This document shows positions 6,984-61,400 of a DNA stretch of 64,000 nt, piece by piece. The translations under genes were made by a program, and so were the position numbers. Every line of letters starts with the position of its first letter. The first letter of the stretch is position 1. Source of the DNA: Heterocephalus glaber (Eukaryota > Chordata > Mammalia > Rodentia > Bathyergidae); NCBI RefSeq assembly GCF_000247695.1, contig NW_004624801.1, positions 5,455,933 through 5,519,932 of the forward strand. Direction: 5' to 3'. The notes below the pieces were generated by a model. The model did no database searches. It was not told the origin of the DNA and saw only the letters and a program-made list of their open reading frames with translations.

Positions 6984-11297
<4,314 letters not shown>

Positions 11298-11313: not shown

Positions 11314-11948
11314 GAAGCCTATGGAGAAAGAAAACTAGGTCCAGACTCTCCTTCAGAGAGCATCCCCTGCAGGAGGCAGACCCATGAGTTCATAAAGTGC
11401 ACCTTGTGACACTCACGTACTTATTTAGGACTACTCAGCCCTAGTATTAGTGTTTCCTTAGAAGCAGATGTCTGTGCTCAAAGCTCTAGTAGTGACACCA
11501 GTGTTTTAGCTTTCTAGTACTCCTTATCCCTAGAAGTCGCCATACTATGGCCCAGTAACTCCTGAGGGAGAAGGGTGGAGCCCTCAGGGGCTAGTTTAGC
11601 CACTTGAGAAATGGTGGATCAGGGTGGAGTCCTACAAGAGCTACCCTGAATGCCTGGGAAACAATCTTTTACATTCATCCAATCAATGACTCTTTTACTT
11701 TATTTAAGGCAGCAACGATGGAAATCTAAAGTACTTACCTGAATTTGAAACAAAGAGGAAATCCATCCTGAGTGCCCTATGTTCCCTGAAATCGAGGCTT
11801 TAGCTCTTATCTATAAAAGCACAAAGCACAATCCATGTCCATTCACAAGACTTACAAAAATAAAATACCAACTTTTCAAATTGGAAGAAAGAAAATAAAG
11901 TGGCTCAAGCAACTTTTCAAAATACTGTGACAAGATACTTCAAAATAC
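11314..11948 (-). other. probable ERV leader and unassigned DNA
   Basis: By position, the DNA just right of the MORC2 insertion should be the ERV 5' leader. I do not recognise a primer-binding site or a 5' LTR, although ttatttaaggca near 11700 resembles the R region of the 3' LTR. The 5' LTR is lost or too diverged to see. Confidence 0.3.
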
Positions 11949-12566
11949 TTCTCTCTCCAGGTGTCCTCGTGAGAGTGGCATCATCTTTAAATCCTGTGTG
12001 GCAATCCCTGACACACTGCGGTGATGCTCAGGGAAGACGGGGCAACCTGGAAATCCAACCAACCACTTCCTTAAGATCATCCTCCTTTTGGGTAATTATC
12101 CAAAATGCTTCTTTGTGCGAGCAGACAATGCAGATCTGCATGTCCCTCTGAGGGAAGGCTGTGGGGCTGATGGGCAAGAACACCATGATGTGCAACTCAT
12201 CTGGAAAACAACCCAGCTCTGGAGAAACTGTTCCCCGAGAAAATGTGGGCTTTGTGTTCACCAGAAAGGACCTCACTGAGATCAAGGATATGCTGCTGGC
12301 CAGTAAGGAGCCAGCTGCTGCCTGTGCTGCTGCCATTGCACCATGCGAAGTCCTGTGCCAGCCCAGAACACTGGTCTGAGGCCTGAGAAGACCTCCTTCT
12401 TTCAGGCTTTAGGCATCACCAGTAAAATATCTGGGGGTTGCTGGGGATGTAGCTCAGGGGCACAGCGCCTGCCTGGCAAGCATGAAGTCCTGAGATCGAT
12501 CCCCGGTACAAAAAAAAGGACTAAAATATCTGGGAGTATCATTGAAATTCTGAGTGATGTGCAGCT
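11949..12566 (+). pseudogene. RPLP0P: RPLP0 5' half, processed (part of chimera)
   Basis: A retrocopy of the 5' half of the 60S acidic ribosomal protein P0 mRNA. It starts at the pyrimidine-rich 5' end (ttctctctccagg, a 5'TOP-type start), runs through the 5' UTR and the degenerate ATG at 12024, and includes recognisable segments ([55 protein letters not shown]). Small deletions shift the frame. A SINE at 12436-12520 interrupts it. RPLP0 similarity stops just after the SDVQL codons, with no poly(A) tail, and MFAP1 sequence begins at once. Confidence 0.9.
12436..12520 (+). mobile_element. ID-like SINE in the RPLP0 part
   Basis: A box tagctcagggg, B box gatcgatcc, tail acaaaaaaaagga. The target-site duplication taaaatatctggg at 12423-12435 and 12522-12534 shows it arrived after the pseudogene. 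Confidence 0.9.
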
Positions 12567-14015
12567 AAAGTGGTGGGAGAAAGTGACTCAGAAGTAGAAG
12601 GAGATGCTTGGTGCATGGAATGAGAAGATAGCAGTGAAGAGGAAGAGGAAGTGGAAGAGTTTGATGATGAGGAAATAGAGCAGCACTGTGGCATGATGTG
12701 TCAGCGAGCACAGGAGAGAGAAAATGAAGAGACGGAAGTCATGGAGGTGGAGGAGAAGGACGTTCTGGGGAAGAGTCAGAGCCTGAGTCTGAGTAGGAAG
12801 AATACACAGACAGTGAGAGGAGATGGGCCTCTCCTTAAACCAGTCTTTATTCGAAAGAAGGACTGAATAGCCATTAAGACTGTGAGACTGAAGTACTGAA
12901 GCAGAAGGAGCTGGAGCAGGAAGCAGGAAGCTGAGGTACACACTCAAGATTGTAGAAGAGGAGACCAAAGAAGAGCTGGAAGAGAACAAGCAGGTGTTCT
13001 CAATAATGATGATGAAGATGATGAGGAGTATGAGACATGGAAGTTTCGAGAGCTAAACAGAATCAAGAGGGCCAAAGACTGAGAAGCATTTGAAAAAGAG
13101 AAAGCAGAAGCTGAGTGCAAGAGAAACCTTACTGAGGAAGAGAGGAGAGCTGAACTTTGGGCAAATGGCAAAGTCATTACCAACAAAGCTGTTAAGGGTA
13201 AATGCAAGTTTTTACAGAAGTGTTATCACTGGGGTGCCTTCTTCATGGATGAGGATGAAGAAGTATACAAGAGAGATTTCAGTGCACTTACCCTCGAGGA
13301 TCATTTCAACAAAACTATTCTTCCTAAAGACATGCAGGTCATGAAATTGGGACGTTCTGGTCGTACCAAATACACCCACCTTGTGGACCAAGACACTACC
13401 TCTTTTGACTCAGGATAGGGACAAGAGAGTGTAGAATACAAAGCTCTAAACAAAAGGTAGCAGGGGTATGAGACGTATTTGAGCAGCCATCGGCAAGAAG
13501 CAGAAAACTACCTAATATTTCACCACTTTTCCAACTATGGGACACAAGGAGGAATCTCAGCAGCTGGTCCTTGATTTTCTTTTTCCATTATGTACATGGT
13601 CCCAGCTGACTGGACTTACTGCCATACTTGTATTCCTGGGTGGCTCCATTTTTGAAGGTGCTTTTTGAGATTTGGACTCATATGGAGAAACTCACCCGCC
13701 ACACACATACACACACAAAAGCACTATCCAGGTAGGATTAGACTTCCCAGTTAAAACCATTTCTGAGAAATCCTAGATTTCTCCACTAGGGCTTCCCATA
13801 TTTACTTGAATCTCAGGAGTTTCTTTTTCCAGCCCCTTAGCTTGAGACAGAAATGTAGGCATGTAAACAGACAATGTGTTACCTCTACCTTAGCATTAAG
13901 AGGAAATTTAAGCTATTTGAAACCTGTTTTGCATTTTTGGTTGGAGTCAACTTTTCTAAGTAAATATATTTTTGATCCATTTATGTGTGTGTCAAGAAAT
14001 AAAATAATTACATCC
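12567..14015 (+). pseudogene. MFAP1P: MFAP1 3' half, processed (part of chimera)
   Basis: A retrocopy of the 3' half of MFAP1, a nuclear spliceosome-associated protein despite its name. Similarity begins inside the coding region (the [14 protein letters not shown] codons at about 12570-12611). It runs through the acidic region (SSEEEEE, DDEEIEQ), LKPVFIRKKD, TEEERRAEL, KVITNKAVKGK, FFMDEDEEVYKRDFSA and GRSGRTKYTHLVDQDTTSFDS, to a stop near 13520 and a 3' UTR. An aataaa signal is at about 13999. Stops and frameshifts are scattered through it. No introns are present. The 5' half of MFAP1 is missing and RPLP0 replaces it. Confidence 0.9.
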
Positions 14016-15734
14016 CCCCAAAAGAGAAAGCATATATATTGCTCTGATTGAAACATAGGAACCCTCTTATTCATGTACTATACAGGGCAAATATACGTTT
14101 TTACTTCATCAGAAGCACCTGGTTATCTACAGTTAATTTACAGTAAGATGGCATTTCAATGAACTTTTACATGTAAAATAATTATAGAGTAACTTAAATT
14201 TTGAAGCTTGAACATACCTAAATTAAACACTTGCTTTTTCAGGGAAAAGATTGCTATCTGGTCATTTGGGAGCTCAAGGTCATACCCTCAGCTAACAGGT
14301 GGCAGAGGTGAGATGCAAACCCAGGTCTTGCTAATGTGCAAGCCAGTGCCAGTATTTACTAGCTCTTTCTATCAGATATTCCTGGTTCTGGGTGCTGAGC
14401 AGGTTGCTAGCATGAATGTAGCTCATTCTTTGCCCTCAGATGTTAGTAACATGACTACAGAAACTATCACACACATGGGGATCTAGTGCTACCATCTTCT
14501 GTGCCTCAACTATTTCTTTCTGGGGTTGCCAGCACTAGGCAGTGGGGACAGAGTTCTGAGGGAACCTCCAGGCCAGTTCTAAACCCAGGATTCTCCTGGG
14601 GCTGGCTTTGCAGGAGAATGCCTCACAGAAACCCTGGGACACAGGTTCTGGATGTTGACAGTGATGGGCAGAGGCCAGCATCTGTCACCAATAGCTACTG
14701 TAGACATCTGGTTCCCTGCTGAATGGGGCCAGGCTGTGGGAGGCTGACAGCCATGGACTCTGTCTTTTACTCCAAAGCTGTAGTTCAGCAAGGGCTCTAC
14801 CAACCATGTGTGCATTCCCAGCACTATTACTGGTGACTTTTCTTGCCCCATGCTCTCTTGTCTTAGCCAAGAGCCAGGCCTCTGGGAAGGGATATCCTAT
14901 TCTAGCTGGACCAGAAAGCAAGGAAAGAGAGAGGGAGAGGAAGAGAGAAATGGAGTGGGGAAAGGACAGGAATATGAAGGGAGAGCAGTTAGAAGATGTG
15001 ATGGAGGGAAAGGCTAAGAGAGGAGGAAGAGGATGACATGATGCAAGGCAGAAGACCCAGGAGGAGGCCATGGTATCCCTCCCACCCCAGGGTCTGTAAT
15101 ACATTGCCTCTGAAAACCATATCCATCCCTGTGTCTTGCTTGCCAAGAAAATAGAGATAAAGCAGCAACGCTGAGGTTGGTGATGGTTGGGCTTAGAAGA
15201 AAACCAGGTACCTGCCTTGGAGTGGTCCCTCCTCTTCCTCATGGGGTCTGTGTCCTCTGCCACTCTTCAACTCCCAGGTCTTACTCTAAAGGTAAATTTT
15301 CCTTAAACCCAGGCCCTGGGCCCTGGGCCTCTCTATTTCCTGTAGCTTCACCCTCTGGGGGATCAGAGTTGCACAAGGGGTATGACCTAGGTCATAGAAC
15401 AGAAATGGGCACTCAGCAAATGCAGGAGGTAAGGATGGGGGGTTGGTAGAGGTGTGCACAGCAGCAGGGCTTGGACTGAAAAAAAGAGTTTCAAGACTGG
15501 ATTCAGGATCTTATTCCCACAGTTTCTAGTTGTTAGAGAAATTACTTAACCTCTCAAAACCTTAGTTTCCTCATCTGTAAAGTAGGGTACATTAATTGAC
15601 CTCTGTGGATGATTGGGAAATTTAGAAGAGAAAATATGTGAAAAGCTCTTGTTTGATAATGCAGTGAATTGAGTTAAAAATGCTTTGAAGTGTAAATGCA
15701 TCTCTGCCCAGATACATATGAAGTTTAATGTCAG
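14016..15734. other. no gene seen; MIR-like fragments
   Basis: About 14270-14350 resembles an old MIR (gctaacaggtggcagag ... aacccaggtctt), as does about 15500-15600 (cctcatctgtaaagtaggg). A purine-rich stretch lies at 14915-15030. The open frames here overlap each other on both strands and match nothing I know. Confidence 0.4.
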
Positions 15735-42559: not shown

Positions 42560-42939
42560 GAGGTGACCCAAACAGGTTCACTAAGCCCCACCCTCACCCC
42601 GGGGTGGGGGAGGGATGGCAGAGCATGGGTTCCCCAGTCTGGCAGGGTGCCAGGCGGGCCCCGAGTCCAGCATGGTTGCCCTGTCCACGGCCTTCGTCCG
42701 CAGCTGCAGCGTCTCTTCTTTCCTGGGTCGCCTTGGCTCCATTGTTGGCCTAGGGGGTCAGGACCCGCCGATTCCTGCATTATTGATGCTCGCGCCTAAG
42801 GGGGGAGCCCAGCGTCAGTTGAGCCCGTATCCCCGCCAGAGCAGAGCCGGAGTGGTGCGCAGCCCGAGCTGAGGTCAGTCAGACTCCCCAAAAGGGAAAA
42901 GAACTGGGGCGTGTGAGGGCCGTGTTCTCTGGGTCGGCC
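42560..42939 (+). promoter_or_regulatory. MYO15B: MYO15B promoter/5' UTR CpG island start
   Basis: CpG density rises from about 42600 and stays high through the first coding exon to about 44750. No TATA box is obvious. An in-frame TGA at 42820 lies upstream of the chosen start. Transcription start not determined. Confidence 0.5.
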
Positions 42940-44879
42940 ATGGGTGGGAACAAGGGTAAAGCGCCCCGCTGCCGGGCGAGACCCAGGAAGCCGAGCTCGG
43001 CGGAACAGGAGTCCGAGTCGGGGGACCGCAGACCCGGCACGCGCAAAGCCCGCCAGGCGACACCGGCCTCGCAGCACGACACCGACGGGGACAAGGGGAC
43101 CGCTGGTGGCCGCAGGAAGCCCATCGCCGAGGGTATCGGAGGAAGCTGCAGGCCTGGAGCTGGGCCCCCACCAGAGGCCCAGGAGAGGCGAGGCAGCACG
43201 CGGCGTCGGGGACACCGCGCCACGGAGGGTTGCGCGCCCGGGGACAGCTGTGGGGCGCGCCGGGGGGACGGCGAGGGGCAGTCTGAGGAGAAGACGGAAC
43301 GGGGACAGAGCCTTCCCGGGGAGGAAGGGCGGACAGGCCACCGCGGCCGCCGCAAGAGGAGAGGGCACGGGGGATATGGGCGGAGAACGGCGGCTCGGAG
43401 GGGCCGCGGCTGGGACTCGTCGGGCGCGGACGGGGCCAGCTCGTGGGCCGACAGTGAACCCCGCGAGGTGTCGGAGCCGGCGGACACGGCCTCGGAAGGG
43501 ACCACAACCGGGCCAGAGCCGACCCTGGAGCCCGGCGAGCGCCAGAGCAGCGACGAGGCTCGGGCCGGGACGTCGGGGACCAGGGATCAGGGGGCGAGCG
43601 AGGATTCGGGGTCGGGGACGCACGCGGAGCTGGGGGCAGCCGAGGGCACCGCCAGCCCGGTCTCCGGCGCCCGCGAGGCGCAGGGCGGGCAAGACGAGGC
43701 CTCCCTCGCGCTGGAGAGCCGAGGCGCGCAGGTTCCCGAGAGCCCGCAGCAACGTCGTGACTCCGGGTCGCAGCCAGGAGATGTGGCAGAAACGGCGGAG
43801 GCCTCCACTGCCCGGGCGCAGGGCCGCCAGGTGGGAAAGGTGGTGGGGAAGGTGCAGGCTGCGGCTGACGAGAGCCAGGCAGAGGCCAGAGAGGGAGAAG
43901 GACCGGGGGACCCAGGTCCCGGGGACCCGGCACCGCTGGCCGCCCTTGTGGTGCTCCGCAGGGTCGGCGCGAGGCCCCCGCCCGACACCTCTCCCCAGGC
44001 GGCGGGCCTCAAGGCGCGGCTCCTCCGCGTGGTGCGGACCCTAGGCCTCCTGCGGTGGCTGCGGTGGGGGCTTCGACGCGGGCTGAGACAGCCTTCCGGC
44101 GAGGGGCGGGGGCCGGGGAGGGAGGGCGAGGGGCGGGGGCCGGGGAGGGAGGGCGAGGGGCGGGACCGCTCCTCTCGGCTGCGGCGCCGACTGGCTTTGC
44201 GCCTGACAGGCTTAGCCCGGTTTGGGGGACCGCCGATGGCGCCCTCTGGCGGCGGCTTGAGCCCTCCGCAGTCCCGGAACAGCCCAGTCCAGGACTCCTC
44301 AGACTACGAGGACCCGACTCCCGATCCCAAGTTCGCAGTCGTGTTCCCCAGGATCCACAGGGCGGGGAGGGCGTCGAGCAGCAGGAGCTCAGAAGCGTCC
44401 GCAGACGCCCCCAGTGGGGAGGGTCGCGTGTGGCCTCGTGCAGGGGCTTCAAGGGCCAGTGAAGGCCGCAGGGAGAGTGGGGAAGGAGTCAGCAGGTCCT
44501 GCGGCGCCTCTGTGGTCTCACCGACTCCACCCGACGAAACTCCGCTAGAGAACGGCTCCAGCAGCAAAGCGGAGCCGGAGACCTCGGAGGCCGTGCCCCC
44601 CGGGCACTGGGCGCTGGGTTCGGGGCCCTACGAGGACCCCAGTCCAGGCACCGACACGCTGCTGCCCCGACTCACCTTGGAGACCCGCCTGCGGCGCGAG
44701 AGGAGTTACTGCGGGTCCCCCGGGGGCCAGTGGGAGCTGGAGGATGAGACCGAGGCGGCGCTGGAGAGGGACCTGGAGCAGAGCCTTGGGCCCAGCCTGG
44801 AAGCGCCACCCTTCCCGGGTGTGGAGGACAGGAGCCCCAGAGAGGGTCTGGAAGACACTGAGGACCTGGCTAGGCTGCG
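42940..44879 (+). CDS. MYO15B: MYO15B exon 1 (N-terminal extension)
   Basis: 646 codons plus two bases, ending CG|GTGAGT. Rich in Gly, Arg, Ser, Glu and Pro and predicted disordered. Very GC-rich, so long shadow frames exist on both strands. MYO15A also has a giant first coding exon. Confidence 0.88.
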
Positions 44880-47800
44880 GTGAGTGCACGCAGCTCCTCA
44901 TATCCCACCCCACCCTCATCTTTATGAATGTATAGCCCCTCTTGGATCCAGAAGAGGTTTTTGCCCCACAGAAGATCTTCTGGCTGGAGGGGCAGGTGGG
45001 GAGTGAAAAGTCAGGCGTCCCTTCCGGGGGCATGTTTTCTAATTGGCAAAAGCTTCCCCCTGGATCCCGGCCTGGTGCGGCTAGAGTTACTGAACCCCCC
45101 AGGTTGTGTGTGTGTGGAGGGGTGGGGTGGGGGGGTGGGATACCGGGGATTAAAGCCAGGGCTCTGACTTACACTCACAGCCTTTTAATTTTTTATTTTT
45201 GAGACAGGGTCTTGCTAAGTCACTAAGTTGCTCGGGCTGAGGGCAAACTTGTGAGCCTCCTGCCTCCCAGAGCACTAGGACTACAGGCGTGGCCCTGATC
45301 TGGGGTGGTTGACCTGCCCCAGGTGTCCCTGCAGCCAGTGGCAGCCAGCCCAGGGCCTCCCTTATCCCCGGCTGCTCACCCCCACCCCTCCTGTGCCCAC
45401 AGGCTGGTGTGTGACAGTTCTGTCTTGTTGTGCCTCAAGAAGAGATTTCACCTCGGCCTCATCTACGTATGAAGGGCTCCAGGGAGGGATGGTGGGCTGC
45501 CATTCCCCCTCCTCTGGGCACAGAGGCTCCCCAGCACATCTGAGGGCTCTTAGGCCCTGGGCTGTGTGGGGAGACCTCTGCCTAGAGTGCTGCTGAGCAG
45601 AGCCAGGGCTGGGCTGGGGTCACCGGAGCCGCCCCCTTTGCAGTCCCCCTGCTCCCCCCATGTTCTGATGGGGGCTTCTGCTTTCTTCCCCAGACATTTG
45701 GCGGGCCCTTCCTGCTCTCTCTGAACCCCTACCAGCCGCTGCCTCTCTTCTCACCTGAGGTCTTGGCCAGCTACCAAGCAGGGAAGGCCCCCAGCACCAC
45801 CCCGTAGGTGACTTTGCCCCTTGGACCCTGTGCTCACCTCCCAGGTGGCCAGACCCCCAGCACATCCAGTGACAGGTCCCGAGGCCTGTGGGCACGTCCT
45901 GCCCACATCTGGGTCTGTCCCCAGATGCACCTCTCTCTCCTCCCCCAGACACCTCTTTGCCATCGTGGCGGCAGCCCACAGCCTGTCTCAGAGCCCAGGC
46001 CGGGACCCCTGCATCCTCCTGGGGTGAGTCCTGCTGTCCCGCTTGGCTGAGCCCACAGACTGAGGGCCTGCAGACTAGGCATTATGGGTAGCCGCTCTGG
46101 ACTCGACCAGGGCTGTGCGCCTCAGGTCCTCACACATCACCCCGGAGTGGCATTTCTCTTTGGTCTCCACACCTCAGGTCTCTCTTTCCTCAACTCTGGG
46201 GAGTTCCCCTAGGGTAGGTGTCTCTTCCGCATAGCACATCCCCAGTGCCCAGGCTCCTTGGGGCCATCACCTGTGCCCTTCCTGGAGACCTTCCAGGTGG
46301 CCTTCTCCCATCCTTAGCTCTTCCCTCCTGCAGGGGGCGCAGCGGCTCAGGGAAAACAGAAGCCACTAAGATGATCTTGCAGTTCCTAAGCAGCCTGGAA
46401 CAGGGGCAGACAGGGGAAAGAGGGTGCCAGGTGAGGCTGGGATGGAGGCTGTCTCCCTCCAGGGGGCAGCTGGCCACTTCCTTTAGGCCAGTAGGGTGGT
46501 GACTTCTCCTGGGTCATTAGTCACAGGCGTGGCCAGGTCTGGGATGGGGGTGGGGCTCGGGGCAGCAGGGGGCAGGAGGGGCGCAGAGGGAGGGCGGCAC
46601 AGGCAGCTGGCATAGAGAGCCCTCAGTGGGTGGCGGCACCGCTGTTGTCCCAGGGACACTTGAGTGACTCTCCCCCCACACAGCTGAGTGACCTGCTGCC
46701 AGTACTCAGTAGCTTTGGCCACGCTAAGACCATCCTCAATGCCAACGCCAGCCGTTTCGGCCAGGTCTTGTGCCTTCATCTGCAGCAGTGAGTGATGGGG
46801 TCCTGGTGGGCACAGGGGCACCTAGGGGGCATTATCCTTCCTGGGAGCCCTGGGTTGCTGCTCTTGGCCCCAGGCCCTGGTGGGCCCATTCTGAGAGAGG
46901 CCCCTTGGTGTGTGCCCTGGGCACCCAAATCTGTCTCCTGTGCCCACAGTGGGGTCATCTCGGGAGCCTCTGTGTCACATTATCTGCTCGAGGCTTCCAG
47001 AGTGGTGTTTCAGGTGAGGGCCACCCTCCTGTCCACCTCATCACCGCCCCAAGAGTGGGAAGGAAGAAGGGGCTGTGGCTCCAGGCACTGCTCCCCTAAT
47101 CCAGTCTTGCTCCCCAAGGCCCAGGCTGAGCGGAGCTTCCATGTTTTTTATGAGCTGCTGGCAGGGCTGGACCCCAGGGAGAAGGAGCAGCTCTCACTTC
47201 AGGGACCAGAGAGCTACTACTACCTCAACCAGGTGGGGCATGCCCTCGACCTCATGTGCGGGGGAGGGAGCTGCCCAGACAAGGGTCTCCGCCCACTGGC
47301 CCTCAGAGGAGCCAGATGGTGGGGCCTGCGGGAAGGCCATGCCCTACCCCTCAGCCCACTGTGCTTGCAGGGCCAGGCCTGCAGGCTCCAGGGCAAGGAG
47401 GACGCCCAGGACTTCGAGGGACTGGTGACGGCCCTGCAGGTGCTGGGCTTGTGCCCTGAGGAGTTGACCACAGTCTGGGCCTTGCTGGCCACTGTCGTGC
47501 ATCTGGGCAACATCTGCTTCTCTTCTTCAGAGGTGGGCTTCACCTGTGGTCAGGGCCAGTGGGGATGGGGATGCAGGGTCAGCCATGGTTGTTTGCATGA
47601 TCAGGGCAGTGACAGTGTTGCCAAGCCCTCGTGCATAGGAAACTACAAAGCTCTGGGCCAACCCGGAAAGCAGATATCCCCATTGTACAGATGAGAAGGC
47701 CACCCTGGTGCTTCTACATCTTCCTGATACCTCTTCCACTCAGCTGCCCTAAGAAGAGCACCTGGCATTAACTGAACAGCTATTATGTGCAGGGTACTGG

Positions 47801-50800
47801 AAGCATCACCTGACAAGTGTTTTCTAACTTAGTTCTTGTGACAACACCATGACTGAAGTGTGACCGTTTCTCCTTTAGCAGTAAGGCAGTAGGGGCTCAG
47901 GAAGGGAAAGAGACTCACAGATCTGCCTGGCTAGTAAGGTGAGAAGGTGAGGACTTGCACTCAAGGCCCTCAGACCCAAAGCGTGGCTCATGATGGCCCA
48001 GATTTCCCCACGTGCTATTATCCCTTTGTGTCACAGGGCAGCTGGGTCCCTGTCTCTGCCCTGGGGAATACGTCCACTCCACAAGCAGACCTCTCCCTGT
48101 CCCTTCCTCCACCCAGCGGGAGTCCCAGGAGGTGGCCTCCGTGTCCAGTTGGGCCGAGATCCACACAGCAGCCCAGCTGTTGCGGGTGCCCCCAGAGCAC
48201 CTGGAGGGGGCTGTCACCAGGAGGGTCATGGTGAGCCCAAGGGTCCTGGGGAGGTGGGGAACGGTCCTACCACCTTTGGCCTGGGTGCCTGCTGGGCCTG
48301 ACAGGCACCTCCCCTGGCCTCCAGGAGACACCCTACGGCCGGGTCTCGAGATCCCTGCCCGTGGAAAGTGCCATCGATGCCAGGTGGCCCTGGGGACGGG
48401 AGAGCGGGCCAGGCCGGTGCTCTGCTCTATGTGGCTGACTCCCAGTGCCTCCAGGGATGCTCTGGCCAAGGCCCTGTACTCTCGGCTCTTCCACTGGCTC
48501 CTGAGGAGGATCAACGCACAGCTGGCAGCCCCTGGGGAGGGAAGCAGCGAGGGCACCATCACGGTCGTGGACGCCTATGGCTTTGAGGTCAGCCCTCGGG
48601 TGGGACCCAGGATGGGGCACCCCACTTCATTGTGTTGTGTTTCTGGGGGTTGCCAGCTCCTCCTGAGCCACCTGCTTGTGGGGCCATGTCCCTTCTCTGG
48701 CTCCTTCTGCAACTACTGGGCAGCTGAGGGGTCAATGGCACCAGGATGGGGCCTGGCCATACGAGGATGGAGGCGAGGGAGCAGGCCCTGCCTCTGGGGA
48801 CACAAGTGATGCTGGCAGGTAACTGTAGGGTTCTCGCTTCACTCACCTCCCAAGGGTGTGACTGAGAGGAGGATGTCCCTGCCACGTGCCCATGTTCATT
48901 TCCAAGCAGGCCCTCTTCTGGCTTCTCTGGTCCCTCCTGGCTCCTCTCTGAGTGTCCGGCTAAAGAGCTGGGTCCCTGGAAGGTCCGAGGCTCTGGATAA
49001 TTTGTGTCCTGCTGCTCAGTAGCTCTGTGACCCATGCAAGTGAATTAACCTGGCTGAGGCGAGCATTCCTGTGTATAAGGTCGGGGTCACAACGGGACAG
49101 TCCCCGAGAGCTGCCTGCTCCATAGGTGCAGCCTTCCTGCCCTGCCCTGCCCTGCCCTGCCCTGTCCCGACATCTGCTCTGGAGAGTTCTGTCCTGCTTG
49201 GCCTTGCAGAGACCCGGGGAGGCCCCAGGCTAGGCCGCCCACAGCCTCACCTCCCACTCACCAAGGGGCAGGGAAGAGGGAGGGTCCCCCACACCTGCCC
49301 AAGTTCACATCGCCTCTGCACCACTTGCCGAAATCCCCCTCTTCGGGCCCAGGGGAGCTGGAGGAGAGGAAGTGGCCACCTTAGACCCTGAATGGCCAAT
49401 ATTCCCTGCCCGCATCTATGTCCTCCGTGACCTTGGTCCTTGGTGTGTGTCCTTGTGACCATCTGTCCTGCGGGATGTGGGATTCTGGTAGTCAGCAAGC
49501 TAAGTAGGCAAAGGCTGGACTCCAGCGTGGCTGAGACCAGGCTGTGAAGCCTCACAGCGGTACTGGAGCAGGGAACAGGACTGTGGGCAGCCGGAGGGAG
49601 GCCTGACGTGCAGTGGCCCTTGGCCTGTGCCAGGACCTTTGGGCTCGACCTTGTAGGCTCCGGCTCTTTGAGCCCTGGAGAGAAGGATGGGGAGCCCCTG
49701 GGGAGACAATGAAGGGCTCAGGCTCTGTGTGCAGCCCCACCGACCCTGTGCCCACCTCACTGCCCGCTGCCCCAGGCGCTGCGGGTGAACAGCCTGGAAC
49801 AGCTGTGCAACAACCTCGCCAGCGAGCGCCTGCGGCTCTTCTCCAGCCAGACACTGAAGGCCCAGGAGGAGGTAGGGACCTGGCCGTGGCCATGGCGGGG
49901 CCCTGGGAATTGCCCAGCAGAGGCCTCCTTGGTAGAGAGAGCAGTGCAGTAAGAGCTCAGCCTGAAAGCACCCTTTCCTCGGGGAGGTTCCTTCCTTCCA
50001 GGTCAAGGTTTACTGTCTATAAAGTGGAAGCTCAACCCTGCTCCAATTCAGTGAGCCCCTCGAGAACAGGAACTGTAAATGGCTGAATGCAGCCAGGTGT
50101 GGTGGTGCACAGCTGTACTCCGGGAGACTGAGACAGGAGGATTGCAAGTTCAAGCCCAGCCTGGGCAACTTAGTGACTGAGCAAGACCCTGTCTCAAAAT
50201 AAAAAAATAAAAAAGGCCTGGGGGTGGAGCTCAGTGGTTCAGCCCCCAATACCAATGGGAAAAAACAATAAAGGTTAGAAGCGGGCTATTTCAGGAGGAG
50301 TGTCGGCGAGAGCTGCTGCCCTGGGCGCCCACGCCCCAGCCTCCTTTCGAGTCCTGCCTAGACCTCCTGGTGGACCAGCCCCGCAGCCTCCTGAGTATCC
50401 TGGATGCCCAGACATGGCTGTCTCAGGTGAGGGCGGGGCAGTGACCCGTGTCAGGGATAAGAAGTGAATGCCCAGAGCCAGCGGGGCCCCAGAGCTGGGG
50501 GACAGGAGGCTATGAGTGTGGGAGACCCGGCCACAGCCGCTTGGCACAGCCTGGGGAGGACACCAAGGGGAGCCCTGGCTCTCGCTTGTTTCTGGGTGAG
50601 CTTAACCAAGGTCCCTGGCCTCGGGGCTCAAGTCCAAAGAGCAGGGTGGTGGGCCGGGCCAGGGCTCACAAAGGACTTCTGCGGGTCCTCTCTGATGGTG
50701 GCCAGGTGTCCCTCAGGCCTCCCACTGTAAGGGACAAGCCTCAGGGCCACATGCATCCATTCCGCGAATACTTTGTGCCTGCTGTCTGCTAGCTCTATCT

Positions 50801-53800
50801 AAATATTCCTCCTTACCCTTTAGCCTCGCCCCACTTCGTATTTTAACACTCACATCCAAGAGTGATTATGGAGCACATTTATTCATTCGCTCGTTCCTCT
50901 GCACTGGACTACGTTCTGTGACGGCCCTGTGTGAGGGTCCAGTTCTACCCCTAGCACATGTTCAGGGGTCCCTAAAGAAGGAAGGACAAATTTGTGTGCC
51001 TGGGACCATGCTAAGGATAAAAAGCGATCATAGACCCAGTCTATCCCTTCTTGAAGCCCACAGTATAGAAGGAGTGAAATGTTAATGTTTAAAAATGCCA
51101 GGGTGTGGTGTGTGACTCTAATCCCAGGATCAGGAGGCTGAGGCAAGAGGATTTCAAGTTTGAGACCACCCTGGGCTAAATAATGAGATTCTCTTTCAGA
51201 GAGAGAAAGAGAGAGGACACCAGGTACAGTGTTACACACCTGTAATCCCAGCACTCAGGAGGCTCAGGCAGAGCACAGCCTGGGAAATTTAGGGACTAAG
51301 CAAGACCTTGTCTCAAAATAAAAAGTAAACAATAAGCTAGAGATGTAGCTCAATATAAAAGTCCTAGGTTCAGTCCCCAGTACAGGGGAGAAAAATCAGT
51401 TTTCAACACACATATTTGAGATCCCTTACTAGATATAACAAGTATCAATTTGTAAATAATTGTTTTTCCCAGTTCACATTCCAGAAAGTTTTATTAAAAC
51501 TTGTCACTGGTGTCTTTGAGGTCCAGGGCTATTTTTGGAAACCTCTAGCAGGGTTTTCCAGGGCTTGGCACTGCCCCCATTGAGCAGGCTACTTGAAATG
51601 TAACACCATTTGGGTCAGAGGAGGTGCTGGCCCTAGAATTATCACCCCAAGCCACTGTTGTCACTTTGTAGCATTAGGGCATGTGGCCCCCAGCCCTTTG
51701 CTGCAATGTGTTGTTCATGAGCTCTGTGAAATGACCTCTACTGGGGTGACATTTTGAAAGTGACCTTTGGACCTAGAGATGTAGCTCTGTGGTAAAGCCC
51801 TTGCCCAGCATGTGTGAGACCGTGGGTTCCATGCCCAGCATAACGCGCCCCCCAAAAGAGAGAGAGATTTGAGAGTCTTGTAATTGTGGGACCATACTCC
51901 CAGGGGAGTGACATATACATCTATTCTAAAGCTCCCACTGCCATTCCCTTTAAATGGCTCTGTCCAGCCTCTTCTATAGCCACCAAATCTACTGTTGACT
52001 GAGGTGATTCTTGGCCCTAGACCAACATGTCTATCTCAGATGGTACTTGATTGTTCAAAATAAAGTCATTGAGAAAGAGGGCGTACCCTCTACAGGGACT
52101 CCGGCATAGAGTGACACATCCCTCCTGGGAGAGAAGCTGGGGGAACGGGACTGCACAGCCTTCTACTCAGGCTGCGTCCTGCTGGGTCCAGGACAATATG
52201 TACAAACCCTGAGGTTGCTTGACTCACCGCTTATCAGGCCACGGACCACACCTTCCTCCAGAAGTGTCACTATCACCATGGTGATCACCCAAGCTATGCC
52301 AAGCCCCAGCTGCCCCTGCCCATCTTCACTGTGCAACATTATGCTGGGACTGTCACCTACCAGGTATGGACCTCAGGGACAGACGCCAGGTGAATCAGTG
52401 AGGCAGTGTGACCTTGGTATCTCCTCCCAAACTGAGTCACTGAGCTTGGCCATGCGTCCCCGCCTAGACCAGGGGCCCCTCCCAGACCCCAGGGAGATTT
52501 AGTGATTCTGGGTGAGAATTACGAGGTGGGGGAGTCGAAGCCTGGGGACCTTCCAGATAGAAAGCAGAGCACAAGGCTGGGAAACCCCTCACTAACAGCT
52601 GGGTCTCAGAACTCCAGCTGTTTACTTTGCCTTCTGGGTCTCTTTCCTCATCTGTAAAATGGGCACAGAAATCTAGCCTACAGCATTGTCAGGAGCCTGA
52701 AATGCAGTAAGACCGAGAGGCCTGGCAAGTGCTCACTCCTCAGTGAGCATCCTTTCCCCCTTCTGAATTCCATGTCACCAGGACACCTGCTGAGGACAGG
52801 TGTCTGGCCCCAAGGAGGGACAGTGTGACTGGCAGGTTTGAGGTAGGGAGAGTGACACGGAGCAGATGGCACGCTCTGGTTATATGAGAAAAAACAAAAA
52901 CTATCCAGGAGTTACCCAAACGAGAAATACTAGGAGTTGGAATGAAGAAAACTAGAGCTGGGGTTGTAGGTCACTGGGTTCTATCCCCAGCACTGAGAGA
53001 GACAGACAGACAGACACACAGAGACATATTTCAGTGGAAACAGTGTGGTCTGTTCTTGCGTAGTTAAGTTATTCTAGAAAAATAATACAGTCCCTGGTGG
53101 AATTCTTTTTTTTTTTTTTCACTTTTCTTTTTTTTTTGGTACCGGGGATCGAACTCGGGTCCTTGTGCTTGCGAAGCAGGCAGCAGAACCACTGAGCTAA
53201 ATCCCTGGTCTCCCTGGTGGAATTCTTATAGGAGGGGAATGGGTTTTGGTAAAAATTATCATAACATGTGCATGGTGGCACAGACCTGTAATCAAAGCAC
53301 TCTGGGAAGCTGAGGCAGGAGGAGGATCAAAAGTTCAAGCTCAATCTGAGCTTTTTTTTTTTTTTTTGAGACAAGGTCTCCCTATGCCGTTCAGGCCACC
53401 CTTGAACTCACTATGTAGCCCAAGCTGGCTTTGAACTTGTGATACTCCTTCCTCAGCCTCCCTAGTGCTAGGATCACAGGCGTGCAGCATCACTCCCAGC
53501 TTCAGCCTGAGCAATTTAGACCTTGTCTCAAAAAGTAAGAAAGGGGAGGTTGGGGATATAAGTAAAGTGTAAAAACCCTAGGTTCAATCCCCAGTAGTGC
53601 ACACACTGTGTGAGAGAGAAAGAGAAATTCAAGCTTCATCTGGAGAAAGAATGCATGAGAGTCATCAATAGAATATTGAAGCAGGCCCAGGGATTTAGCT
53701 CAGTGGTTCTAGCACCTGCCTTGAGAGTGCAAGGTCCCAAGTTCGATCCCCGGTACCAAAAAAAAATTTATAAAATAAAATAAAATATTGAAGCAGAGGA

Positions 53801-56800
53801 TGAAGGAGGGATTTGCTGTGCCAGATAGGAAAATGTATTCTGAAGCCAAGGCCTAAATGCAGATGGCATGGATAAGCAGTGGACCCATTGGTGGATGGAA
53901 TAGAAAGTCCAGCCGCTGCGCCAGGGTATATGAGAGTACTGGCTTCATGACAAGGCAGTCTCGGGAAGCAAGTAGGAGAGGCTGCGCTCTCCCAAGAAGG
54001 AGTCGGCCACGTTGGCCTTCTCTCTGACTCCCCGTCCATCTCTGGCAGGTTCACAAGTTCTTAACCAGAAACCGAGACCACCTTGACCCCGCCGTGGTGG
54101 AGATGCTTGCCCAGAGCCAGCTGCAGGTGCCCCTGGCAGCCCTCCCATTCTGCCTTCTCCCCATAGTCTCTTGCCCAAGGGACAGCCCTGAACCCCCGGC
54201 GCCCTGGGGTCCTGGTTCCCCGGCCTGTGGGAAGGGTGGACAGGCCCAGGGCAGCCCCTCAGCCTCATCTTGCCCACAGCTGGTGAGAAGCCTGTTCCAG
54301 AAAGCAGAGCCCCATCGAGGGAAATCCACACTGGCCTGCCGCTTCCTGCAGTCCCTGGGGGAACTTCTAGAACAGCTGGGCCGGTAAGAACAGCGACCCC
54401 CAACTAGAGACCCCAGGGAGCTGGATGGGGGAGCTGGGCTGTGTCCAGTGAGCCCCCTTTACTCTGCAGGAGTCACATTTATTTCATCCAGTGCCTCAAC
54501 CCCAATCCTGGAAAGGTGAGGACCCCCCACCCCAGGTCCCAGGCCTCCCCACTCCCCTGGCTCCTCCCCTCATGCCTTGGCTGTAAGCCCATGACTGCTC
54601 CTTCATCAGTTCTCTCTCTGGCCATAGATCCCAGGCCTCTTTGATGTGGGACATGTAGCAGAACAGCTGCACCAGGCTGGGATCCTGGAGGCCATCAGCA
54701 TCCGCAGTGCCCACTTCCCCATGCGCGTCCCCTTCCAGGCCTTCCTGGCCAGGTAGAGCCCTGGGGCGGAGCAGCCAAAGGTCCAGTGCCTCTCGGCAGG
54801 ACAGACGGAGAGGGCTCCTTCCTGGTGGAGAGGGACCCTTCCCTTTTGCCCGGACTCTGGGCCTGGCTTCCAAGCCTCCCCCTCTCTCCTTCCTCTTTCC
54901 GAGTCACCCTCCTTTCATTATTTACCGTCCCTCCTGCCTTCACCTGCCCCTCCTCCACCCAGCAAGACTCTGCAGTGCTAAAGCCCAGTTAGAGGAAGGG
55001 GGGACAGTGCCTGCCCTGGGGGTCCCAGTGTGGTGAGGGGGTGAGTTAGTGAGTTGGGGATGGTGGGCCAGGAGCAGAGCCCCTCGGATGGCAGGAGGGG
55101 TGACCAAGCACAGCAGTGGGGAATGGGGCACAGTGAGAATGAGGGGCTCTGTGTGGGGATTTTGGAACCCCCCGGGAAAGCTGGTGGCCTTGTTGTGTTG
55201 TTGTTTGCGCATTTGGCTTCCCACTGGCTAGCAGCCTCTCAGAACCCCCTGGAGGGATGCCTCACCCCAGGCTCTGCTGGCCCTGTTTGGCATGATGGCC
55301 TTGGTAGTGGGGACACCCTGGCCGTGGGGCTGAGATTGAAGCAGGCAGCAGGTGTGTGTGCCCTTGTCCTTGAGCCTGCCTCTTCCCAGGCCAGGCCAGG
55401 AAGGTTCTGTCCCTGCCCTCTGGACACTCACCAGCTGCAGCAGTTGCCACCTCCCAGGAACCCTGAGCCCTGAGGCTGGGTAGGGGGAGCTTGGGGTGCT
55501 GTTGTCCCCCTAGCACTGACCAAGTCTGTTTAATGGTCTGCTGCCCTGTGCCCCCTCCCCTGCCTGCCTCCCTTCCACCACACCTGAGACTCACTGTGCT
55601 GGGCTGTGCAGGGTATCCAGGGCAGACAGAAGCTGCAGGACCACACTCCCACTGCTCCTACCATCCAGAACCAGCTGCATGGCCCCCTGCACACACACAG
55701 TCCTTCGAGCCCATCTCCTCTCCCAAGTGGAGGCCCCACCTCCCCAGTGCATGGCTGTAACCGGGCTCCCAAATTGTGGAATGACCACCAAACTGGATAA
55801 CTAGAGAGGGGCTCGGGGTGTCGATCAAGCATGAAAGGAGCCCTTGCTTTTGTGACCTCAGCTGTGTGTCCTTGGGACAGGTTCCAGGCTCTGGGGACAG
55901 AAGGACAAGGCAGCTTCTCTGACCGGGAGAGGTGCGGTGCCATCCTCAGCTGTGCGCTGGGGGCTGAGTCTCCACTTTGTCACCTTGGAGCCACCCAGGT
56001 GGGTTCCAGGGTCTGTGTGTGCAAGCAGTCAGGCATGGGTGGAAGGGAGAGGCACCTTCAGGCACAAACCAGGGACAAACTGCGTTGGGTGGTCCTGCAA
56101 GTGGTGGCACAATGGCGCGGGGCTGGGCAGCGGGCTGTCTGGGACAATCTGGGGTACACAGTTTGGCAGAAAGGCAGGAGGCTGAGGCCAGGGAAGAGCA
56201 GGCACATCCTGGCCCCTGCGCCTGTCCCACCTGCAGCCACACCTCTGCCCACAGGTCCTGCTGCAGGAGCAGGGCTGGCAGCAGCTGGAGCGACTCTGGG
56301 CCCAACGGCGCTCCCAGGCCTTGCTCACCCTGCGTCGTGGCCTCCGCGGCTGCATCTCCTCCCACCAGCGCCTCCGCCTCCTGCCCAGGCTGCAGGCCCG
56401 AGTGCGTGGGCTCCAGGCCAGGTGGGCGGGTGGAGCGGAGGGCTGAGGTGGGTAAGATGAGGCCATGGACTCCTCCAGGTGATGAGGCAGAGTTCAGGAG
56501 ACATCGACCCTCAAGAAGCGTCTCCCTGTCCCAGTGCCGTCTCATCAACTCTGGCCTCTCCTTGATAGCATTGCAACTCCTGCTCATGCAGCCTCTGCAT
56601 GAATATCCCCAGGCATGAGAACCTGACTGTCTGATGAGTCTGCCTGAACCTGCGGTTCTCACTCCTCCATTTTCTTTTCTAATGTTTTCTTCACCTTGAA
56701 GCAAGAACAATCATTTAGCCCCGAGTGGTGTCACACACCTGTATTCCCAGGACTCAGGAGGCAAAGGCAGGAGGATCTCCACAAGTTCAAGGCCAGGCTG

Positions 56801-58387
56801 AACTACAATAGGGAGATCCTCTCTCAAAAAACAAAACAAAACAACAAAAAAAACAAAAAGAATGATCATTTAAAAAAATGAATCAGGTTGTGTAAGGTCC
56901 TGCCTACCTCTCCAGCCTGTGTTTAAGTCAGACTTTTACACTCCAGCCACGTGGACTTCTTGGTCTTATAATGTGACCCTTCCCGATGAACTCCTGATCA
57001 GTGCATTAACTCCTTCTGACCCTTCCCAGCCTGTCTTCGTTCATCCAAGCAGCTGCTGCCAGATGCTGACCATCTGTGCCCCCCTGGCAGATGCTGGTGG
57101 TGCAGGGATGAAGTCAGCAGGGATAGTCCATTCCGGGCTAGTGGGGGAGTCCGATTCAGACAGCAGACCAGCCACTGATTGTGGCAAGGGTAACACAGGG
57201 CCAAGAATCAAGTAAAGACTGGGACCCTAGGAGAGGGGGGCAGCCATCACCACTGTCTGGATCCAAAACTTTCCACCACGTAAACAGATATTTGTAGCAT
57301 TAAGTCATAACTCCCTAGCTTCCACCCCAGCTCCTGGCAACTTTCAGTCTACTTTCTGTGTCTATGAATTTGCCTTTTCTAGATATTTCTTGGAAGCTAT
57401 CTTACACAATATTTCCTTTTATGTCTGGCTTATTTTACGTAGCGTAATGGTTTTGTCTTGGTTTGCTTTGGTTTTATGGTACTGGGGATTAAACTCAGGG
57501 TCTTTACACTGAACTACACACCAGCCCTTTTTTACTTTTTATTTTGAGACAGGATCTTGTAAAATTGCTAAATTGCCCTGGGTGGGTCCAAACTTTCGAT
57601 CTTCCTGCCTCAGTCTCCCGGAGTGCTGGGATCACAGGTGTGCACCACTACGCCCAGCTTAGCACAATGTTTTCAAATTTCATCTATGTTACAGCATGTA
57701 TCAGGACTTCATTTTTTTTTATGGCTGAGTAATTCTCCTTTGGTGGATTAACTACACATTATTTATATCTGTTTATCTTTTGGTTATTTGAATTGTTTCC
57801 ATTATTTATGAATAATGCTGCTATGGATATGGCTGTACAAGTATCTTCTAGTCTGTGCTTTCAAGTTTCTTAGGTCTGTAATCATTTGTTCTATGTTGAA
57901 CTTTTTGAGGAGCTGCCCAGCTGTCTCCCACATCACTTTTTGTGGTTGTTGTTGTTTGGTACCAGGCATCAAACTTGGGACCCTGCACTTGCGAGGCAGG
58001 TTTGGTGCCACTGAGCTAAATCCCCTCCCCACCCCCGAATCACTTTTTATTCCTACTGGCCATCTACCAGGGTCCCAGCTTCTCTGCATCCTTGCTGATG
58101 ACTTGTTATCTTCTGTGTTTTTAGTTATTGCCATCCTTGTGAGTATGAAGGAGGATCTCATGGTTTTGCTTTGCATTTCTCTATTGCCCAGGGATGTTGG
58201 ATATATTTTCATGTGCCTCTTAGCCATTAGCATATCTTCTAAGAGAAAAACGCCTCAAGTCCTCTGACTGGTTTTTTAAATTGGATTGTCTCTTTTTTGT
58301 TGGGCTGTAGGAAGCTCTTATATTTTCTGGATATTAAGCCACTATCAAATATGTGCTTTGCAAATATTTCCTATTCTGTGGATTGTC

Positions 58388-58426
<39 letters not shown>

Positions 58427-61400
58427 GGTTCTAGGGGTAGAATCCACGACCTCACAAATGCTAGGCAACACCCCCAGCCCTATTTTTTTTTTTTTTTTTG
58501 GTACCGGGGATCGAACTCGGGTCCTTGCGCTTGCGCAGCAAGCACTGAAACCACTGAGCTAAATCCCCGGCCCTCAGAGTCAATTTTTACATGAATGTCC
58601 AGGCGCAGAGGATTCAGGTACCAGGCAGGAGACGTTAGTTTGAACCCTCATCCCTTCATTACCCCCCACGGCCTCCAGGAAGCGATACCTGCGGCGACGG
58701 GCAGCTCTGGCACAGCTGAACACCGCACTCCTGCTGGCCCGGCCCTTGCTCCAGAGGCGGCAGAGGCTGAAGGTGACAGGGTTTGGGGAGGCTGCTGGAC
58801 TGGTGAGGCTTGGGTGGAACCCAGGCAATCTTGTCTGGAAAGTCGCTGAGCCCCGACGTGCTCAGCCTCTTAGCCCAGCCTCCCAGGGCCCAGGGCTCAG
58901 AGACCATTGCTCCCTGCACTCTTCCATCTGGCCAGGGCAGCCAGGGGCCCTAGGCGGCCACTGCTCCCTTCCCACACCCCCTTCTTCCCTGGGGTTCCTT
59001 CCATCCCCTCCAGCCCTCTGTGGGCCCCTACTCTTCCCCCTCTTGCCCAATGACTCCAACTTGAGGGCCATAAAGCTGCTCAAAGGTCAGTACCCACATG
59101 CTGCCCCCTCCCTGGCCTCTCCCTGGCTGGACTTTGTCCCCTGGGACCATTTCTTCCCTTCTTCCTGCCCTCTTCCCGGTACCCTGGCAGACGGGCAGTG
59201 ACGTCCACAGCAGAGGCTGGTGAGAGTTCAGAAGGCTGGGGGGAACCAGGGGTGGACTGCGCAACAGGCAGCTGCCCCTCTGGGTCTATTGTTCCTTTGT
59301 GGGTGCCAGGGCCTCCCAGGGACCCTAGGGAATAGCTGACCTGCAGAGCTGGGAGCAGCTGCCGGGAGGCCCTAGGTGGGTCTTGACGGGGGGCGCTGGC
59401 TCCTCCTGCATCTCCCCACAGCCTGGGTATTGGAGTGGCCAGCACAGCGGCGGGGCCTCAGGGAGCATGCCAAGCATGGTAAGTGGCCTGCAAGTGGGAG
59501 GGGCTTCGACATGGGCTCTGAACCCCGCACACCTGGCACAGCTTGGGGGAAGGTGGGAGCTAAGGGTGTTGCCAGGGGTCTTGTCCCTCATGTGCCCCCT
59601 GAGGGCAGGACAAGGTGCCCATGGCTCTGCAGTGCCCTTTTATCCCTAGGAGGGTTCTTGGGGCGCTGCTCGTTTAAATAGTCAGGCCCAGAGTCCTCGG
59701 TCTTCGGAGAGGATATTTATATCAACCAGGGAGTGAGGGAGAAGAGCGGGTCCCTCTCTCAACTCCTGGGAACTTGGTCCCGTCCACTAGGAGCTGGAAC
59801 ACTTGGAGATCCCAGCTGAGCTGGCAGCCTTGCTGAGGACGGCAGGAGGTGAGTCTCGCTGCCTCTCCTGCCAGCTCCTGCGGGCTCCCTGCAGATGGGG
59901 GCTGGTAGCCGACGAGAACAGTAGGGTTGGTGCCATTTCAGACATAACACACAGTGTCTCCTTTCCAGGCCACCAGGATGCCCTGGCTGGAATCATCACC
60001 GAGACTATGCCCCCTGAGGTTCCTGCCTGGCCCAGCCTGACCCTCCCACTGGACATAGACCTCTTCCCCTTCTCCAGCTTCATCTCCACCAGCTTTCAGG
60101 TGGGCCCCAGGCCTGTGCGCTTCCTGCCGGCCCAGCATTCCCTAGCGTTAGCACCTGCCAGGCAGAAAGAAGCTTGGCCTCTCCCTTTCTCCATCTTCTG
60201 CAGCTGTCAGGGCTGTGGATATAGCCAATCTGCTCTGAAAATATCCATTAAACTGAAATAGCTCATTGTGGACATTATTTCAGTCCGTGAGGCCACGCCT
60301 TTGTATACCTGTGGTATTGTCCTGCCCTTGAAGTCATCTCGTTAAAGAATGTTTGACACGGAAACTGTCCAGACTACAGTATGAAATACAAAAGCAGGAT
60401 TCAAAACTGCACATATAGTACAATCCCAGTTTTCTTTAAAAACAACAAGGGAGGCCAGGGATTTAGCTCAGTGGTTTCGCCACCTGCTGCGCAAGCACAA
60501 GGACCTGAGTTCGATCCCGGTACCAAAACAACAACAACAACAACAACAACAAACAAACAAGAAAGAAAGGCTAAAATGTTAACTACTTATCTCTGGCTGT
60601 GGAATGTTAATGGTAGTTCTAATTTTTAATCTTCTGCTTTCTGCATGTATGGTTAACAATCTCCTAATCAGAGAACTACTATGATGCATTTCTGAGCTGA
60701 GTGTGGTGCACATGCCTGTAATCTCAGCACTCAGGAGGCTGAGACAGGAGGATTGCCACAAGTTTGAGACCTGGGCTACTTAGTGAGTTCAAGGCCAGCT
60801 TGAACTACATACCAAGACCTTGTCTCAAAAAACCAAAACCAAAAGAGACAAGCAGAAAGATGCATTTCTAAGAGGGTTTTATGCCCCAGCCCTCCCCTTC
60901 TCCCAGGATGCATGCTCCGTGGGGGGTCCCCCGGGGGCTACCCTTCCCCGTTCAGCACAGAGAACAAGCTCTGTATCACCCTTCTCTGCAGGAGCCCTCC
61001 CTGCCTAGCCCAGGGCAACCTCTGGCCAGGCCACTGACTCGGCTGGAGGGAGAGAACCCCCAGCATGCCCTGGACATCAACAGGGTGGTGAGTAACACAT
61101 CCTGGAGGGGACAGGGGGCCTTACAGGGGCCGGACCGGCACAGGAGAGTCCTGCACTTCCTCCCCTGCCCTGGCTTTGTGTCACAGATGCTGCGGCTGCT
61201 GGGAGACGCATCCCTGCAGTCCTGGCAGGAGCAGATTATGGGCACTTACCTGGTGCGGCTGGGGCAGCACCGGCCAGGGCTTCGGGACGAGCTCTTCAGC
61301 CAACTTGTGGCTCAGCTGTGGCACAACCCAGATGAGCAGCAGGGCCAGCGAGGCTGGGCCCTCATGGCTGTCCTGCTCAGCGCCTTCCCCCCAATGCCCG

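Follow-up and report, generated by a model that had tools for sequence, protein, structure and literature searches.

An RPLP0–MFAP1 fusion in Heterocephalus glaber, best read as a chimeric retrocopy from one insertion

Structure of the Locus

The DNA analyzed here (the window) is a stretch of 64,000 nucleotides from contig NW_004624801.1 of Heterocephalus glaber. Between positions 11950 and 14019 it carries the 5′ half of an RPLP0 mRNA joined directly to the last part of MFAP1, in the same orientation and without a spacer. The parental RPLP0 and MFAP1 genes contain introns. The copies contain none and are colinear with the messages apart from small indels and one inserted SINE, and the RPLP0 stretch (codons 1–160) takes up 444 bases while the MFAP1 stretch, from codon 111 through the stop, takes up 948. 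The features of the locus are as follows.

11950–12566, plus strand: 5′ part of an RPLP0 mRNA, from the 5′UTR to the second base of codon 160, a processed pseudogene interrupted by a SINE (tblastn, degenerate-codon alignment, DNA alignment to a stretch of human mRNA)
12423–12438, plus strand: left copy of the SINE target-site duplication, approximate bounds (repeat family D7, 15 of 16 bases identical)
about 12437–12519, plus strand: ID-type SINE, a later insertion into the RPLP0 part (12440–12504 against an ID consensus, 82%, E = 1.5e-13)
12522–12537, plus strand: right copy of the SINE target-site duplication (repeat family D7)
12567–12573, plus strand: RPLP0/MFAP1 junction zone (sequences and alignment ends, with proposed readings that use a human RPLP0 mRNA stretch)
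12568–13515, plus strand: MFAP1 coding sequence without introns, running from residue 111 through its stop codon and broken by in-frame stops and frameshifts (tblastn, alignment, Pfam, PDB)
13516–14019, plus strand: probable MFAP1 3′UTR (contiguity and AATAAA at 13998–14003)
14020–14029, plus strand: A-rich stretch of 10 bases (sequence), possibly a tail

Frameshifts and in-frame stops are present in the RPLP0 half and the MFAP1 half alike; the unit is a dead copy, and no function is suggested for it. Alignments and tblastn searches of both parts bear out the preliminary description of the locus, which had proposed an intronless RPLP0 copy fused to MFAP1 in the same orientation. A Pfam scan of five reading frames returned MFAP1 on one, a sub-threshold match on another (RL10P_insert) and nothing on three, and an Rfam scan of the whole window at gathering scores gave 0 matches. 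Searches of viral contigs with the MFAP1 piece and the two human proteins produced 17, 8, and 145 pattern matches, none of which was upheld by tblastn.

The RPLP0 Part and Its SINE

The human RPLP0 and MFAP1 proteins used as queries are identical throughout to PDB chains 28ln_Bs (317 residues) and 5o9z_K (439 residues), respectively. With RPLP0, tblastn aligned residues 38–121 (E = 1.1e-20), 11–150 (E = 3.4e-14), and 1–80 (E = 0.024) in three frames over 12024–12438, the start codon being at 12024. A piece of this part also matches RPLP0 in the PDB (E = 1.1e-17), and the RL10P_insert match reached 20.6 bits against a cut-off of 29.1. A stretch of human RPLP0 mRNA, of which the coding part translates to the checked protein and the 5′UTR part is provisional, aligns from its second base (11950) to GATGTGCAGCT (12566) when the SINE is omitted and five gaps are allowed. 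Provided that this 5′UTR is correct, the RPLP0 copy starts close to the 5′ end of the message. Of the 5′TOP-like start proposed earlier at 11949, the RPLP0 match stands; the copy begins at 11950, and its identity as the cap region depends on the provisional 5′UTR. The other boundary, placed at about 12566 inside the coding region, is exactly where the alignment stops, in codon 160 of 317. The part carries five indels, including deletions of 20, 11, and 7 bases. Just upstream, the 11 bases TTCAAAATACT occur twice in 11916–11949, 23 bases apart, and the second copy ends one base before the RPLP0 match; this repeat may be due to chance or to a small duplication, or may be a trace of the insertion.

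The ID-type SINE that interrupts the RPLP0 part is a feature absent from the preliminary description. In both copies of its target-site duplication the sequence is ATATCTGGG, against ATCTCCAGG in the human RPLP0 mRNA. Three differences separate the two sequences, one replacing arginine with glycine and two being silent, and because one of them changes an amino acid, the RPLP0 part had probably already begun to decay in sequence before the SINE arrived; the two silent changes could be lineage differences. Matches to the ID consensus in the window number 24 at E ≤ 0.01, some of them only 16–29 bases long, and are suggestive of a rodent genome.

The MFAP1 Part and Its 3′ End

The MFAP1 part is recognized by tblastn as residues 111–412 at 12567–13436 (E = 4.8e-102) and residues 418–437 (E = 8e-4), and a frameshift-tolerant alignment to back-translated codons carries it from residue 111 through the stop at 13515. 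Within it, 13083–13418 matches MFAP1 in Pfam (E = 1.5e-39) and in the PDB (E = 1.4e-56).

Downstream of the stop, 13516–14019 is probably the MFAP1 3′UTR, as its contiguity with the coding sequence and the AATAAA motif suggest. At the end, AATAAA at 13998 is followed by just a 10-base A-rich stretch at 14020, which is possibly a worn poly(A) tail. The proposal that the MFAP1 sequence runs into its 3′UTR and an aataaa signal is sustained for the coding sequence to 13515 and for the signal at 13998, the 3′UTR between them being assigned by contiguity. Farther along, about 14260–14370 resembles a MIR element when compared by eye with the consensus; if it is one, this part of the 3′ flank is ancient genomic sequence that bounds the insertion.

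The Junction

The RPLP0 sequence closes with CAGCT and the MFAP1 sequence opens with AAGTGG. Between them stands an A at 12567, on the simplest reading the only base that lacks a direct parental match. No poly(A) or spacer is visible in the sequence between them, and the earlier statement that MFAP1 follows RPLP0 directly holds to that single base between 12566 and 12568. Two readings of the joint can be put forward. The parts may share GA (12567–12568), the G having later become A, where the G on the RPLP0 side is taken from the human mRNA. Alternatively, they may share AAGTGG (12568–12573), with a loss of 16 bases from RPLP0 beside it, because AAAGTGG occurs 16 bases farther along the human RPLP0 message; such a loss can be set beside the other deletions in the RPLP0 copy (7, 11, and 20 bases). 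Both readings would fit a template jump and end joining equally well.

Divergence of the Two Parts

The age of the two parts was compared through substitutions at first and second codon positions that are fixed by the protein, with the SINE and one copy of its duplication excluded and each part cut at the junction. In this final count RPLP0 has 19 substitutions at 260 sites and MFAP1 35 at 553 (Fisher p = 0.65), an odds ratio of 1.17 (95% interval 0.65–2.08). The count uses human proteins in place of the parental ones, and age gaps below about twofold would escape it. Indels number 5 in 444 bases of RPLP0 and 13 in 948 of MFAP1. Earlier counts, now superseded, gave 18/244 vs 35/553 when the stretch after the SINE was omitted and 16/210 vs 25/465 (p = 0.30) at sites away from gaps; a count that extended past the junction gave 22/272 for RPLP0 (p = 0.38) and, away from gaps, 19/231 vs 25/465 (p = 0.18). 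RPLP0 is slightly more diverged than MFAP1 in every valid count, never significantly. The halves had been predicted to be equally diverged, and so they are (19/260 vs 35/553) within an error of about twofold. Equal age is also compatible with two retrocopies joined by a deletion.

Insertion Scars and Missing Parts

A single pair of target-site duplications around the whole unit, which the preliminary description expected, was not found by ungapped or gapped searches of the flanks. The ungapped comparison of 11880–11965 with 13990–14110 gave nothing above chance at the right place, and the gapped comparison of 11919–11952 with 14012–14065 gave a best score of 5, which was reached by 891 of 1,000 random pairs drawn, as in all these scorings, from the window. 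One candidate, an A-rich 14-base match between 11885 and 13994 (score 12, a level that 4 of 300 random pairs equaled or surpassed), was rejected as misplaced: one end falls some 50 bases before the RPLP0 start, and the other within the AATAAA region. At the age of the unit, a 15-base duplication could have worn past recognition. One survey, confined to duplications of 5–30 bases, finds that short duplications seldom accompany mRNA retrocopies (PMC2912911).

Separate scars were sought with 20 bases to either side of the joint. The 20 RPLP0 bases to its left have no repeat in the 3′ flank (144 of 1,000 random pairs score as high), and the 20 MFAP1 bases to its right have none in the 5′ flank (551 of 1,000). 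Over these short stretches, then, neither half has an insertion scar of its own, in keeping with what had been anticipated.

The missing 3′ half of RPLP0 and 5′ part of MFAP1 have no convincing tblastn match within the 64-kb window. Beyond RPLP0 residue 160 the sole row covers residues 211–228 (E = 7.8); before MFAP1 residue 111 the rows cover residues 23–78 (E = 0.33, a match that falls within the MFAP1 part) and 26–59 (E = 3.8). These belong to the eight rows left besides the main matches, with E from 0.33 to 7.8, all taken as chance.

Origin of the Unit

The best reading, to which a probability of roughly 70% is assigned, is that the unit is a non-functional chimeric retrocopy produced by one insertion, in which reverse transcriptase jumped from MFAP1 mRNA to RPLP0 mRNA. 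The LINE-1 machinery would have started target-primed reverse transcription at the tail of an MFAP1 mRNA. After some 1.45 kb, on reaching codon 111, the enzyme would have jumped to an RPLP0 mRNA, either at an internal position or at a 3′ end left by breakage, and copied that message to about its start. A few bases common to both messages (two or six, depending on the reading of the junction) may have aided the jump. Afterwards the unit would have decayed neutrally and received the ID-type SINE. The fusion, the order and orientation of the parts, their intronless colinearity, their equal decay within error, and the inserted SINE are observed directly; that the enzyme came from LINE-1, that it jumped, and which way it did so are what the single-insertion reading adds to them. 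The order of the parts, with a 5′ partner that reaches the mRNA start and a 3′ partner that is 5′-truncated and runs to AATAAA, is a prediction of a jump from MFAP1 to RPLP0. The layout proposed earlier for such a jump is supported by the equal divergence, the lack of an own scar for either half in the flanks compared, and the unmatched missing parts in the window, and it falls short in the duplication around the whole unit; that none was found is what weakens the case for a single insertion most. Against a jump also stand the position of the acceptor site, internal to RPLP0, and the fact that a short shared stretch at a junction can be left by deletion as well. Internal switching has been reported for U5 and, according to the same source, was never seen for U6/L1 (PMC4476161). 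It is fairly likely, on balance, that a single LINE-1 insertion with a mid-synthesis jump from the coding region of one mRNA into that of an unrelated one, and with no LINE or snRNA part, accounts for the unit.

The strongest rival, itself unlikely, holds that RPLP0 and MFAP1 retrocopies of similar age lay side by side on the same strand until a deletion took the 3′ half and tail of RPLP0, the spacer, and the 5′ part of MFAP1. End joining suits the short overlap at the junction as well as a jump does, and the failure to find a duplication around the whole unit also favors it. It needs two adjacent insertions of nearly equal age and a deletion ending inside both, and the ages of the halves do agree within error. 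A rough guess from assumed figures (10,000 retrocopies, 3 Gb, same-strand neighbors within 5 kb, a deletion chance of 0.1–1%) puts such events at about 0.1–1 per genome, so this history is not negligible.

It is improbable that the two messages were joined as RNA, by trans-splicing or read-through, and that the fused RNA was then retroposed once. Splicing was favored for several of 17 mRNA/LINE-1 chimeras, 6 of which end precisely at splice donors (PMC13174262), and the RPLP0 side here reads GTGCAG two bases before its end, so that an exon end nearby is possible. The joint CAGCT/AAGTGG would nevertheless be unlike a usual exon–exon joint if the CT comes from RPLP0. The adjacency of the parts would also be explained by the insertion of one retrocopy into, or exactly against, the other, which is very improbable: MFAP1 inserted into RPLP0 would leave the 3′ half of RPLP0 after 14019, for which the window has no convincing match, and the stretches compared yielded no separate duplication for either half. 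Least credible of all is an assembly error joining two unrelated retrocopies, a misjoin being unlikely between sequences that share only a few bases.

Relation to Known Chimeras

Chimeric retrogenes with messenger RNAs among their transcripts have already been described, some with the transcripts fused directly to each other and more often with fusion to a LINE (PMC2104539). This neither bears out nor contradicts the preliminary remark that a chimera of two mRNAs is less usual. That article gives five common features of bipartite chimeric retrogenes: a full-length 5′ part, a 5′-truncated 3′ part, truncation sites scattered at random in the RNA, a direct joint in the same orientation, and short flanking direct repeats (PMC2104539). 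The present unit resembles them in its direct, same-orientation joint (12566/12568), in the 5′ truncation of its 3′ part (MFAP1 from residue 111), and in a 5′ part that reaches the RNA start; it differs in that the 5′ part is not full length, RPLP0 stopping at codon 160 of 317, and in the lack of a LINE part. Flanking direct repeats were not found here, and age could hide them. Because two of the five features are present and a full-length 5′ part is not, the unit works like a chimeric retrogene and is a variant of the class, not a plain member.

Two other groups offer partial parallels. U5/U3 chimeras with internal switching likewise have a 5′ partner truncated at its 3′ end, but they join a small nuclear or nucleolar RNA to a retrotransposon, whereas two mRNAs are joined here (PMC4476161). 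The mRNA/LINE-1 chimeras also place the 5′ end of an mRNA upstream in the sense orientation, but what follows in them is a LINE-1 sequence, in most cases close to full length, and 6 of the 17 end precisely at splice donors (PMC13174262); here MFAP1 takes the downstream place. Ordinary RPLP0 and MFAP1 processed pseudogenes are similarly intronless and decayed and differ in having one parent, where this unit has two. An RPLP0/MFAP1 fusion was not encountered in the open-access literature among the matches listed, as judged by titles and the beginnings of abstracts, and the available texts of PMC5408686, PMC7488140, and PMC11259980 give no further case of such a chimera. The event would be an accident of a known kind, a copying enzyme switching between two messages. 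If it was one insertion, the unit records a jump from mRNA to mRNA at a site internal to the acceptor, adds a further chimera that has no LINE or U6 part, and indicates that retroposition could fuse two coding regions in a single step.

Neighboring Features

Elsewhere in the window, on the minus strand at 8483–9169, an open frame matches residues 359–548 of MORC2 over a single run of 190 residues (E = 1e-99), with zf-CW and Morc6_S5 domains; this copy is likely a processed pseudogene or retrocopy. An open frame at 7134–7781 on the same strand has no Pfam match, nor has a 686-residue open frame at 42823–44883. The latter may be a large first exon of an unconventional myosin gene, parts of which lie on the plus strand at 46792–61426 (myosin head at 46792–47694 and 47994–48809, MyTH4 at 60872–61426) and which presumably resembles MYO15A or MYO15B.
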